Source of the DNA: a virus
Strand: one strand, 5' to 3'
DNA: 64,000 nt
Virus record (IMG/VR): IMGVR_UViG_3300017767_000001
Coordinates: 1 to 64,000 of that record
The stretch's first letter is position 1. Each line of letters opens with the position of its first letter. The position numbers and the translations under genes are program-made. Below the pieces are notes generated by a model, which did not search any database, was not told the origin of the DNA, and saw only the letters and a list, made by a program, of their open reading frames with translations. This document shows, piece by piece, positions 9,272 to 12,785 of the stretch.

Positions 9272-9278
9272 CCCCTTT
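9259..9278. terminator. Bidirectional intrinsic terminator
   Basis: AAAGGGGC and GCCCCTTT pair around CGTA. On the minus strand the hairpin is followed by six T's; on the plus strand by a weaker T-rich tail. It ends the bS21 operon and the transcript of the 26-aa peptide. Confidence 0.8.
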
Positions 9279-9281
9279 AAT

Positions 9282-9362
9282 TTAGAAGTATCCTGAGTGG
9301 CCTAATTTCCAAAAGCACCAAAACACTACTATTCCATATATTATCCAATAAATTTCTTCCAC
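9282..9362 (-). CDS. 26-aa membrane peptide
   Basis: GTG start with GGAGGGATAG just upstream. EEIYWIIYGIVVFWCFWKLG then HSGYF: one aromatic-rich membrane helix. It stops four bases before the terminator hairpin. No convincing minus-strand promoter was found upstream. Confidence 0.5.
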   Translation of the reverse strand: MEEIYWIIYGIVVFWCFWKLGHSGYF

Positions 9363-9442
9363 CTATCCCTCCAATAAAATATTTTTTCGTTAACTGAGAA
9401 GCGCCCAGGTACTGTAATCCAAGACCAGGGCAAAAATAGTAT

Positions 9443-9471
9443 TTGTAATATGCCAAAAAGTATGGTAAAAT
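9443..9471 (+). promoter_or_regulatory. Plus-strand promoter of the 330-nt RNA
   Basis: CAAAAATAGTAT element, TTGTAA, 17 nt, TAAAAT. The hexamers are imperfect, but upstream element and spacing match the other promoters of this genome. Confidence 0.6.
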
Positions 9472-9477
9472 AAACAC

Positions 9478-9808
9478 ATATTTTGATGAACAATCAAGTC
9501 AATCACAGATTCTTACTAACTAGATCGAAATCGTTTGAATTAGATTTATTCTGGGCGGGGCATAAGGCGAAGCCGTAATGTCCCTAACCATAAATCTGAA
9601 TGAAACTGATTTCGGGATCACCAATCTCTGATTACTTTTGTGCTTCAATTAAGTATTGATTGTGACGAATATTCATAATAAAGATAATCAAATAATTCGT
9701 TCACAATCAAACAACCCCGCTAATAATCATTCTACGATTATTACTGAAAATCCGTCTACTACTTACACAAAACCCTTCAAAATTTGCGCCAATTCGCAAT
9801 TTTTTTAT
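9478..9808 (+). ncRNA. Candidate structured noncoding RNA, about 330 nt
   Basis: No convincing coding frame fills this stretch (a 30-codon ORF at 9486 is the only candidate), but it has a promoter, an intrinsic terminator and dense complementarity. A rod runs from 9501 to 9632: AATCACAGATT with AATCTCTGATT (one mismatch), GATCGAAATC with GATTTCGggATC, AGATTTAT with ATAAATCT, GGGGCAT with ATGTCCC, and an apical GGCgaaGCC. A second hairpin pairs TTGATTGTG and ACGAAT with ATTCGT and CACAATCAA (9656-9710, one bulge). A third pairs TAATAATC with GATTATTA (9721-9743). I do not recognise a known RNA family. A DNA-level role (origin hairpins) is an alternative. Confidence 0.5.
9777..9808 (+). terminator. 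Intrinsic terminator of the 330-nt RNA
   Basis: AAAATTtGCG and CGCAATTTT pair around CCAATT, with seven T's at the end. The complementary strand also reads as a weaker terminator for the convergent 49-aa gene operon. Confidence 0.65.
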
Positions 9809-9956: not shown

Positions 9957-10271
9957 TTACGACCCCGCTACCGCTTCAAGGAGTTTTCTGAGAGTTTCTT
10001 TTGGGCTCTTTTCGAGGCCCGATATACTTCCCACCTCGATCTCCAGAGCATCAGCGATATTCGAAACGATTTCAATTTTTGTGATAGGTTTTTCTCCAGT
10101 TTTTGAAACATACACCTCTCTCCGGTACACGCCTTCGCGTGATAGCTTTCCAATTATTGACTTCTTACTTCTATTGAGCTCTGCTGCAAGCAACTCTACT
10201 GTACGCATATTCGGACACATAGTATAGCTTTCAATCATATACTCAGTTTCACTCTCCGTGTAGTTCGACAC
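9957..10271 (-). CDS. SANT/Myb-like small regulator
   Basis: 104 aa if started at the GTG that follows ATAGGAGGGAAC (giving MSNYTESETEYMIESY, like the MSNYT start of the paralogue at 15886); an upstream GTG has no ribosome site. Predicted DNA-binding helices TVELLAAELNRSKKSIIGKL, then SREGVYRREV. The C-terminal domain ITKIEIVSNIADALEIE... KETLRKLLEAV is shared with the 12465 and 15886 proteins. Function as a DNA-binding regulator is inferred. Confidence 0.7.
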   Translation of the reverse strand: MSNYTESETEYMIESYTMCPNMRTVELLAAELNRSKKSIIGKLSREGVYRREVYVSKTGEKPITKIEIVSNIADALEIEVGSISGLEKSPKETLRKLLEAVAGS

Positions 10272-10330
10272 GTTCCCTCCTATAACTTCCTTTACCTTTC
10301 TTCGGTTTGTGGACCCCGCCACGATTGTGA

Positions 10331-10657
10331 TTATGCCGCGCCACCGGGTTTCGGATCGTCTCCTTCTGTCTGTTCTTGCCCCGCATAGCTTATTTCTCCT
10401 GTATCTAGATTTATAACTACGTCACCACTTATCCACTCTAGATATTCCACTTCGACATTATCCATGCCCCGGGCTTTAACATATTGAGTGAACACCAGGT
10501 CGTAGTAATGCTCTACTTCAGCTATTTTCTCTTCTAGCTTTTCTATAGTAGTATAGCACAATTGCATACTATCATACAACTCTTTTAGCTCATTTTTTGT
10601 CGTATTTAATTTTAACTTAATACGGCGTTCTTCTGGAAACTCGATTATATTCGACAT
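10331..10657 (-). CDS. Coiled-coil protein of unknown function
   Basis: 108 aa from ATG behind GGGAG. Residues 12-50 form a coiled coil (LNTTKNELKELYDSMQLCYT, IEKLEEKIAEVEHYY); then a small acidic beta segment, and a Gly/Pro tail ending KPGGAA. First gene of the transcript from 10680. Not recognised as a named family. Confidence 0.65.
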   Translation of the reverse strand: MSNIIEFPEERRIKLKLNTTKNELKELYDSMQLCYTTIEKLEEKIAEVEHYYDLVFTQYVKARGMDNVEVEYLEWISGDVVINLDTGEISYAGQEQTEGDDPKPGGAA

Positions 10658-10679: not shown

Positions 10680-10708
10680 ATTATACAGCCCCTGAGAAAA
10701 AATGTCAA
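10680..10708 (-). promoter_or_regulatory. Perfect minus-strand sigma-70 promoter
   Basis: TTGACA, 17 nt, TATAAT, with an AAAAATTTTTC element upstream. It lies about 20 bp after the terminator of the 560-nt RNA. Confidence 0.9.
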
Positions 10709-10727
10709 GAAAAATTTTTAGAACACA

Positions 10728-10762
10728 TAAAAAAATCCCCACATATTTCTATGCAGGGATTT
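10728..10762 (-). terminator. Perfect intrinsic terminator of the 560-nt RNA
   Basis: On the minus strand AAATCCCTGCATA and TATGTGGGGATTT pair over 13 bp (two G-U) around a GAAA tetraloop, followed by a run of T's. Confidence 0.9.
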
Positions 10763-11289
10763 TACAGTTAGGTTTAGAGCCGCGAACTGCCACTAGGCTA
10801 TATAGTGCCTTTCGTTATGGTCGAGGGTTTCGACGCCTCTTTGCAATAATAGACCAATAATAAAAAGGACTTCCTCCTATAGTTATAGTGATACGCACCA
10901 ACCTTCCACACGTATCTGGGTATGTACTGCAGATACCACCCACCACTTTTTCGTTTTTGCTAAACCAGAATGCGAAAATGCAACAAAGCCGTAACTGGTC
11001 GTACACATCCGCCCGTGTACAAGGGGGTTCGATATAGTACCTCGAACAGGGAAAAGTGCGCTAAGTGGCACTAAACTAAGATGGTACTTTTTAACGTGCT
11101 TTGCCATCCCACATTAGCACTCTGTTCCTTACTCCTCGATGCCTTTCAACCTGTACACGGCAGGGTCAACAAGGGTGGAACAAATTAGGTTGGGGCTCCG
11201 GATAGGCCGAGTTAACTTTTACCGGGATCTTTACTGTCTTATCGCAAGTGGGTAGCACACTTATGGCGTCCCTGACTTCCCCCATTTAA
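10728..11289 (-). ncRNA. Candidate large structured noncoding RNA, about 560 nt
   Basis: A consensus promoter and a 13-bp terminator bracket some 560 nt with no convincing gene. Base composition is clearly GC-richer than the flanking coding DNA. At least five perfect local helices exist: CACTA/TAGTG (10791-10807), GTCGA/TCGAC (10820-10834), GTATCTG/CAGATAC (10912-10936), GTACAC/GTGTAC (11001-11020) and GTTCGA/TCGAAC (11027-11047). The longest frame (74 codons, 10883-11107) has no ribosome site and atypical codons. Size and phage setting recall the large phage RNAs ROOL and GOLLD, but I cannot confirm sequence kinship. Confidence 0.65.
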
Positions 11290-11295
11290 GAAGAT

Positions 11296-11325
11296 ATTAT
11301 ACTCCGTTTTTGAACTAAAAGTCAA
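11296..11325 (-). promoter_or_regulatory. Minus-strand sigma-70 promoter of the 560-nt RNA
   Basis: AAAAAAAGTTC element, TTGACT, 18 nt, TATAAT. The TGA stop of the upstream gene lies in the -35 hexamer. Confidence 0.85.
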
Positions 11326-12464: not shown

Positions 12465-12785
12465 TTAGCTCAAGATCTCGAGCAAAGCTTCAAGATCAAC
12501 CTTGGTCATCTTACCTACAGAAGGCAATTCACGGCCCAGTCGCTCGTTTACAGCGTTGACAAAGAACTCTTTCTTGACAACAGGCTCACCGCGCTTGGTT
12601 ACACGCTCTGCTTTCTGGTAGATACCTAGAGCAGACAATTTGGCGATGATAGAGCGAGGGCTCTTACCAAATTTGTCAGCCAGCGCATCGACAGTAGCAC
12701 GAACAGGGTCAGCAGAGTACTTTGTAGTGATCTCGGCAATCATAGTCTCAGAGTAGTTCTGAGAGGCGTTAGCAGTCATAGTCAT
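12465..12785 (-). CDS. SANT/Myb-like small regulator
   Basis: 106 aa, ATG with GGGAG upstream. Predicted DNA-binding helices TVDALADKFGKSPRSIIAKL and SALGIYQKAERVTKRGEP, then the C-terminal domain KKEFFVNAVNERLGRE... KVDLEALLEIL. Very similar in layout to the 9957 protein, including the SIIxKL core and the KRGEP-like linker. Single gene behind its own promoter and before a terminator. Confidence 0.75.
   Translation of the reverse strand: MTMTANASQNYSETMIAEITTKYSADPVRATVDALADKFGKSPRSIIAKLSALGIYQKAERVTKRGEPVVKKEFFVNAVNERLGRELPSVGKMTKVDLEALLEILS

Follow-up and report, generated by a model that had tools for sequence, protein, structure and literature searches.

To our knowledge, few classes of large structured RNA borne by phages have been described, and none has an assigned function. 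One of them, ROOL, is recognized by its RNA-only cage of octamer type. ROOL RNAs are about 600 nt long, stand-alone and highly structured, and occur in phages and prophages, often near tRNA islands, with no known function (PMC12286853). GOLLD is likewise a large phage-borne RNA that lies near tRNAs, with marine examples; it has a conserved and a less conserved half, and is reported to pull down ribosomes (PMC12286853). A permuted (two-piece) tmRNA has been described in the marine phage Melnitz, where a glutamine riboswitch (glnA) adjoins it (PMC9004378).

We analysed a 64,000-nt stretch of viral DNA (the window) that forms the start of a 94,590-base record of a T5-like phage. The window phage carries siphophage genes (terminase large subunit, portal, major tail and tape-measure), and its terminase is about 50% identical to those of Demerecviridae (T5-like) phages, with closer copies in hundreds of metagenomic contigs. 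It is probably a marine T5-like virus of bacteria, although the label 'marine' is inferred from the company it keeps and has no record title behind it. Within a block of small minus-strand genes lies a locus for which a first-pass annotation, made from this one sequence, had proposed a large structured noncoding RNA bounded by a promoter and a terminator of its own. The features that we assign to the locus are as follows, in the 5' to 3' direction of the predicted RNA.

11296-11325, minus strand: promoter of the RNA gene (-35 TTGACT, 18-nt spacer, -10 TATAAT; 11 of 12 consensus matches)
10726-11289, minus strand: predicted structured noncoding RNA of about 560 nt (ends placed by inference, at 5' by the -10 box and at 3' by the terminator)
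11187-11286, minus strand: module A, a four-helix 5' domain of about 100 nt (alignment, pair counts and 95.3 bits with covariance model R1)
11282-11279/11195-11192, minus strand: helix P1 of module A (alignment of module A sequences)
11276-11274/11238-11236, minus strand: helix P2 of module A (same alignment)
11268-11266/11245-11243, continuing as 11262-11258/11250-11246, minus strand: helix P3 of module A (same alignment)
11225-11222/11201-11198, minus strand: helix P4 of module A (same alignment)
11138-11170, minus strand: module B, GUUGACC...GGCAUC (conserved alignment block; helices not well resolved)
11078-11120, minus strand: module C, GUGCUAAUG..GGCAAAGCAC..AAAAAGUACC, with helix 11110-11104/11084-11078 (helix 7, four double-changed pairs)
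11027-11047, minus strand: hairpin 11047-11042/11032-11027 (helix 8, double changes in 4 of 6 pairs)
10918-11000, minus strand: module D, helix 11000-10995/10968-10963 and hairpin 10941-10933/10927-10918 (covariation helices 9 and 10)
10890-10916, minus strand: module E, hairpin GAUACGUG...GUGCGUAUC (helix 11, 100% of cells paired)
10799-10884, minus strand: module F, AACUAUAGGAGGAAGUCC...GCGUCGAAA...GGCACUAUA, a removable block (helix 13, three double-changed pairs)
10778-10797, minus strand: module G, AGUGGCAGUUCGCGGCU, a removable block (presence or absence in aligned relatives)
10732-10763, minus strand: intrinsic terminator, a 14-pair GAAA-capped stem and T run (covariation helix 14)
10680-10708, minus strand: separate promoter of the downstream gene, TTGACA-17-TATAAT (perfect consensus, just past the RNA terminator)
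10331-10657, minus strand: conserved neighbour directly downstream of the RNA, a 108-aa protein of unknown function (weak, sub-threshold match to Pfam DUF5638)

Like ROOL, the window RNA is large, stand-alone, structured and phage-encoded, but it is composed of different modules, and its family gains and loses domains block by block. It resembles GOLLD in being phage-borne and large and in having one conserved and one less conserved part, whereas GOLLD conserves its 3' region (PMC12286853) and the constant domain of the window RNA usually lies at the 5' end. The permuted tmRNA of marine phages is a structured phage RNA that also lies nearby in relatives of the window phage, but the window RNA is no tmRNA: ARAGORN and Rfam together detected none, one-piece or permuted, in the window or in the rest of the record. 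The Melnitz glnA riboswitch is similar as a compact RNA domain beside a phage tmRNA, but the glnA model did not match the window RNA even at E = 10.

The likeness to ROOL and GOLLD drawn in the first-pass annotation survives only as an analogy of size, phage context and proximity to tRNA or tmRNA genes in relatives. No match for ROOL, GOLLD, OLE or HEARO was found when all 4227 Rfam families were searched against the window at the gathering score, so that the comparison with these four models that the annotation had proposed supports membership in none of them. At the locus itself, relaxing the Rfam search up to E = 10 yielded only chance terminator-like matches, and a search of module A gave no family match. 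Nor did the GOLLD model match relatives L003, L016, L020, L024, L025, L037, L039, L186, L197 or L199. No HNH/IscB gene was present among the neighbours examined. By what can be tested, the window RNA is therefore not ROOL, GOLLD, OLE, HEARO, a tmRNA or a glutamine riboswitch. It does have those properties of the broad kind of large structured phage noncoding RNA that sequence can show, namely its own promoter and terminator (recognized from sequence only), covariation and no conserved frame. We found no earlier description of it in the open-access papers searched, subscription papers being outside our scope. We judge that it adds a new class to the large phage RNAs, one that is unusual in its modular architecture and has strong comparative support.

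The window holds 19 exact promoters with a 17-nt spacer against 1.6 expected, a twelvefold excess over shuffled sequence (matched in 0 of 100 shuffles), and this promoter class is thus real in the window phage. For an 18-nt spacer the number by itself does not exceed chance (2 found against 1.4 expected); the RNA gene's own 18-nt-spacer promoter is conserved among relatives, and 24 of 31 distinct loci have the promoter 45-68 nt ahead of module A. Also conserved is the order of the elements: promoter, then module A, then terminator, then a second promoter, that of the downstream gene. Because that second, perfect promoter (10708-10680) would start the downstream gene just after the terminator, the RNA unit appears to be discrete. 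Since the RNA gene's promoter is of sigma-70 type, we infer, in the absence of RNA data, that the RNA is transcribed from it by a host-type (sigma-70) RNA polymerase. In the terminator stem 100% of cells are paired and four pairs show double changes; as judged from these alignments, the stem is itself under structural selection. The promoter and terminator are thus present much as annotated, although their minus-strand orientation had gone unstated and the stem had been given 13 pairs rather than 14. The GC-richer stretch noted between them is also there, with 0.44-0.48 in the middle against about 0.34-0.43 around most of the stretch.

The case for a folded RNA rests on relatives, which we located through a viral-contig search with the protein encoded two genes downstream and most of which are fragments. 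Homologues of the RNA gene occur at the same genomic place with 70-96% identity (L002 96%, L009/L011 93%, L008 90%, L042 79%, L013 77%, L010 71%, L003 70%). Across the full transcript in 12 relatives, 96.1% of cells at 75 pairs are paired and 71 cells are double-changed; shuffling gives 20.1 +/- 3.5 such cells, and sliding the partners by 1-3 columns gives 6-11. RNAalifold on 12 transcripts gave 78 pairs, 32 of them with compensatory changes. The 75-pair count excludes one doubtful long-range helix. Because the structure was derived from the sequences on which it was tested, the percentage paired is inflated, but this does not account for the surplus of double changes relative to both controls. 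The test is not R-scape, and kinship among the sequences can inflate the covariation count, which is why the slid controls are quoted. The fold of the window sequence by itself is not significantly stable (MFE -166.7 against -159.5 +/- 6.8 for shuffles, z = -1.06), and so the perfect local helices on which the first-pass annotation had relied would alone prove nothing. Structure is established instead by covariation among relatives, where the compensatory changes that the annotation had told us to look for are indeed found. On this comparative evidence, the fold of the predicted RNA is under selection. We thus put at roughly 80%, jointly with the best explanation as a whole, the reading that the locus is a stand-alone gene of a T5-like phage for a large, folded noncoding RNA with its own promoter and terminator, as first proposed, although the transcript has not been shown experimentally.

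Module A is the most sharply defined part of the RNA, a junction of P2-P3 and P4 closed by P1. In 28 distinct sequences 96.9% of its cells are paired and there are 71 double changes, against 22.7 +/- 3.5 in shuffles and 3-11 in slid controls, and its helices are independently recovered by RNAalifold. P1 changes pairwise between UGAGG/CCUCA, AAGGG/CCCUU and GUGGG/CCCAC, and P2 from GUC/GAC to GCC/GGC, while the unpaired bases (GAAG.CA.GG, GAU(A/G)AG.CAGUAAAGAU and AGCC) are almost invariant. A candidate pseudoknot between GGGA (11272-11269) and UCCC (11226-11223) was rejected, as it is not conserved and its partner bases do not covary.

A core-pattern scan of 2.9 million viral contigs found module A in 38, to which covariance model R1, applied to the loci collected, added L029, L039, L041 and L024. 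The carriers, window included, number about 43 records, all of them viral contigs, and G000 and ten other long records have exactly one copy per genome. In 84,980 bacterial and archaeal genomes there were only two pattern matches, L206 and L207, both rejected as chance (14.5 bits or no model match). A DNA similarity search of the window RNA and three relatives against 50,697 phage records returned only a 37-nt match (E = 0.6), and megablast of 25 kb of the window returned none. This absence from isolates rests on BLAST only, and distant copies of a 100-nt motif could be missed.

In most loci module A comes first in a promoter-to-terminator RNA, and the same small gene lies just downstream. It lies near the 3' end, behind other domains, in L017/L018/L020, and is likewise not at the 5' end in L197 (internal or 3' position). 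In L039:4700-4820 and L041 a variant of module A stands alone on a 25-bp stem that is nearly perfect, and a tRNA-Cys gene follows directly.

The rest of the RNA is a mosaic. The RNA varies from 435 to 680 nt between close relatives, and down to about 210 nt in other locus types, as whole domains are gained or lost; what is retained is the promoter, module A and the terminator. Module C occurs in 15 viral stretches, 15/15 of which also have module A. The stem of module E covaries to the GGUAUG/CAUACC type in L170 and L190. L184/L192 lack the whole of module F, and in L010 and L190 something else takes its place. Module G is present in the window, L002, L008, L009, L013 and L170; the remaining aligned relatives lack it or have a different domain there. 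In L008 about 130 nt are inserted as an extra block ahead of the terminator, a 69-nt block common to L182 and L190 (96% identical) is absent from other relatives, and the terminator stem of L196/L200 is a different one. The RNAs of L024, L025, L179, L186 and L198 contain module X (CGAAAATTG.TA...ATT.CTATG within complementary arms). We read the mosaic as putative domain shuffling at a dedicated RNA locus, although the recombination events have not been traced on a tree. Neither this architecture nor the conserved four-helix 5' domain could have been seen in the single sequence available to the first-pass annotation.

RNAs at the same genomic position in L012/L015/L016/L022 were found to have no module A. 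These (L022:845-1510 and those of the other three) are quite different promoter-to-terminator noncoding RNAs of about 210-665 nt, one of which carries repeated CGCT(A/T)TATAAAA blocks. Module X also occurs as a stand-alone hairpin with variable complementary arms in intergenic gaps of many unrelated-looking viral contigs (L213:7309-7332, L211, L212 and L214-L239; 33 stretches, 19 distinct), with no Rfam match.

The only lead on the function of the RNA is its neighbourhood. In L023, L026-L029, L037 and L193 a tRNA-Trp precedes the RNA, and in most of these a permuted tmRNA lies upstream; L179, L186, L197 and L204 have a permuted tmRNA no more than about 0.6 kb away; and in L003, L010/L174, L013/L181, L170 and L192 a permuted tmRNA and/or tRNA-Trp/Cys is 2-5 kb away. 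RF04321/RF01849 matches were obtained in L003, L037, L186 and L197. The L003 tmRNA lies about 1.7 kb downstream of the matched gene, and the window phage, which lacks it, seems to have lost its permuted tmRNA. ARAGORN also found no tRNA in the window phage, so the link to translation is indirect. The permuted tmRNAs of relatives (L003:5586-6039, L170:13327-13780, L179:6549-6917(-), L186:10333-10709, L193:3136-3526 and L197:7670-8013; also L027, L028, L029 and L037) encode tags such as ANDDVYTLAA, and those scanned match RF04321 and alphaproteobacterial tmRNA models.

This neighbourhood, together with the reported pull-down of ribosomes by GOLLD, leads us to favour, tentatively and at less than even odds, a scaffold or decoy that binds proteins or ribosomes and adjusts the machinery of the host for translation or RNA handling, an inference made without transcript, partner or phenotype data. 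A host-type (sigma-70) polymerase would transcribe the RNA from its own promoter, and its folded domains would act as scaffold or decoy during infection. Module A, as the part that stays constant, would serve for docking or protection, binding specificity would vary with the modules exchanged around it, and the host machinery would thereby be adjusted. These phages diversify tail-fibre proteins by domain shuffling, and the parallel for RNA would be a new modular class in which a constant four-helix domain is combined with interchangeable domains at a dedicated position and specificity is diversified by shuffling; we hold this whole picture, with its action on host translation or RNA machinery, no more firmly. 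The recurring permuted tmRNA/tRNA neighbourhood of the RNA in several relatives is a first testable hint, towards translation or RNA handling, at what a large phage RNA does. At about 100 nt, the minimal conserved domain lends itself to synthesis and probing, and the variants found in nature, which differ by whole modules, are a ready-made deletion series for per-domain roles. Antisense pairing was rejected: the longest word complementary between the RNA and its own genome is 12, not beyond chance (12-14 in shuffles), and this speaks against an antisense action of the RNA on mRNAs of the phage.

The other readings rank below the scaffold or decoy in the order given here, the remainder being unknown. 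The first is that the RNA, unrelated in sequence, is of the homo-oligomerising 'ornate RNA' type by mechanism, forming an RNA-only assembly or cage. Its size range, phage-borne and stand-alone nature, extensive structure and proximity to tRNA/tmRNA in relatives are as in ROOL and GOLLD, and GOLLD too has a conserved and a less conserved half (PMC12286853). However, there is no Rfam match, and the internal gain and loss of modules over the lengths given above is hard to square with a fixed quaternary cage, so we regard this reading as unlikely.

More doubtful still is a cis-regulatory leader or riboswitch of the downstream gene, with module A as the aptamer and the terminator as an attenuator. 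Module A is aptamer-like in being a compact multi-helix junction with many invariant unpaired bases. In L191, L197 and L204 it lies between a promoter and a small membrane-protein gene with no obvious terminator, ends about 20 nt before the ribosome-binding site and could be a leader; a perfect 11-base complement (CCCACUAAUAA) of the P1 strand about 25 nt upstream makes two competing folds, and hence a switch, possible there. In the window and most relatives, however, the RNA is separated from the gene, itself nearly 500 nt from module A, by a strong terminator followed by a consensus promoter of the gene's own. Module A can also sit at either end of the RNA (near the 3' end in L017/L018) or precede a tRNA (L039/L041), and no alternative antiterminator pairing emerged from sequence alone.

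A role for module A in self-cleavage or in blocking nucleases, by which the RNA would have its 5' end made or protected, is improbable. Its position near the 5' end in most loci and its multi-helix junction with highly conserved unpaired bases would suit such a role, but it is internal or 3' in L017, L018 and L197, has no Rfam match to a ribozyme or other family, and does not conserve the GGGA/UCCC pseudoknot; in the window the predicted transcript start is already only about 7 nt upstream, so cleavage would remove little.

The weakest reading, a decayed or overlooked small protein gene or genes, has next to nothing left in its favour: ORFs of 74 and 63 aa exist within the RNA stretch, but they are broken by stops or frameshifts in most relatives, their frames are not conserved, the longest stop-free stretches in relatives have the lengths found in shuffles, and substitutions track base pairing. 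Homologues with conserved protein frames, which the first-pass annotation had named as its own refutation, did not occur; its view that the stretch holds no credible gene is borne out, and the protein-coding explanation is refuted as far as such comparisons allow.

Two related small proteins flank the RNA gene (window 9957-10322(-) and 12465-12785(-)), with a weak match to the phrog_1725 DNA-binding protein and the motif SKKSIIGKLS / SPRSIIAKLS; homologues of the 9957-10322(-) protein occur in 78 viral loci. Window positions 9277-9800 comprise about 500 bases with no convincing reading frame, followed by a terminator at 9278-9259 (minus strand), and are possibly a decayed region or another RNA.
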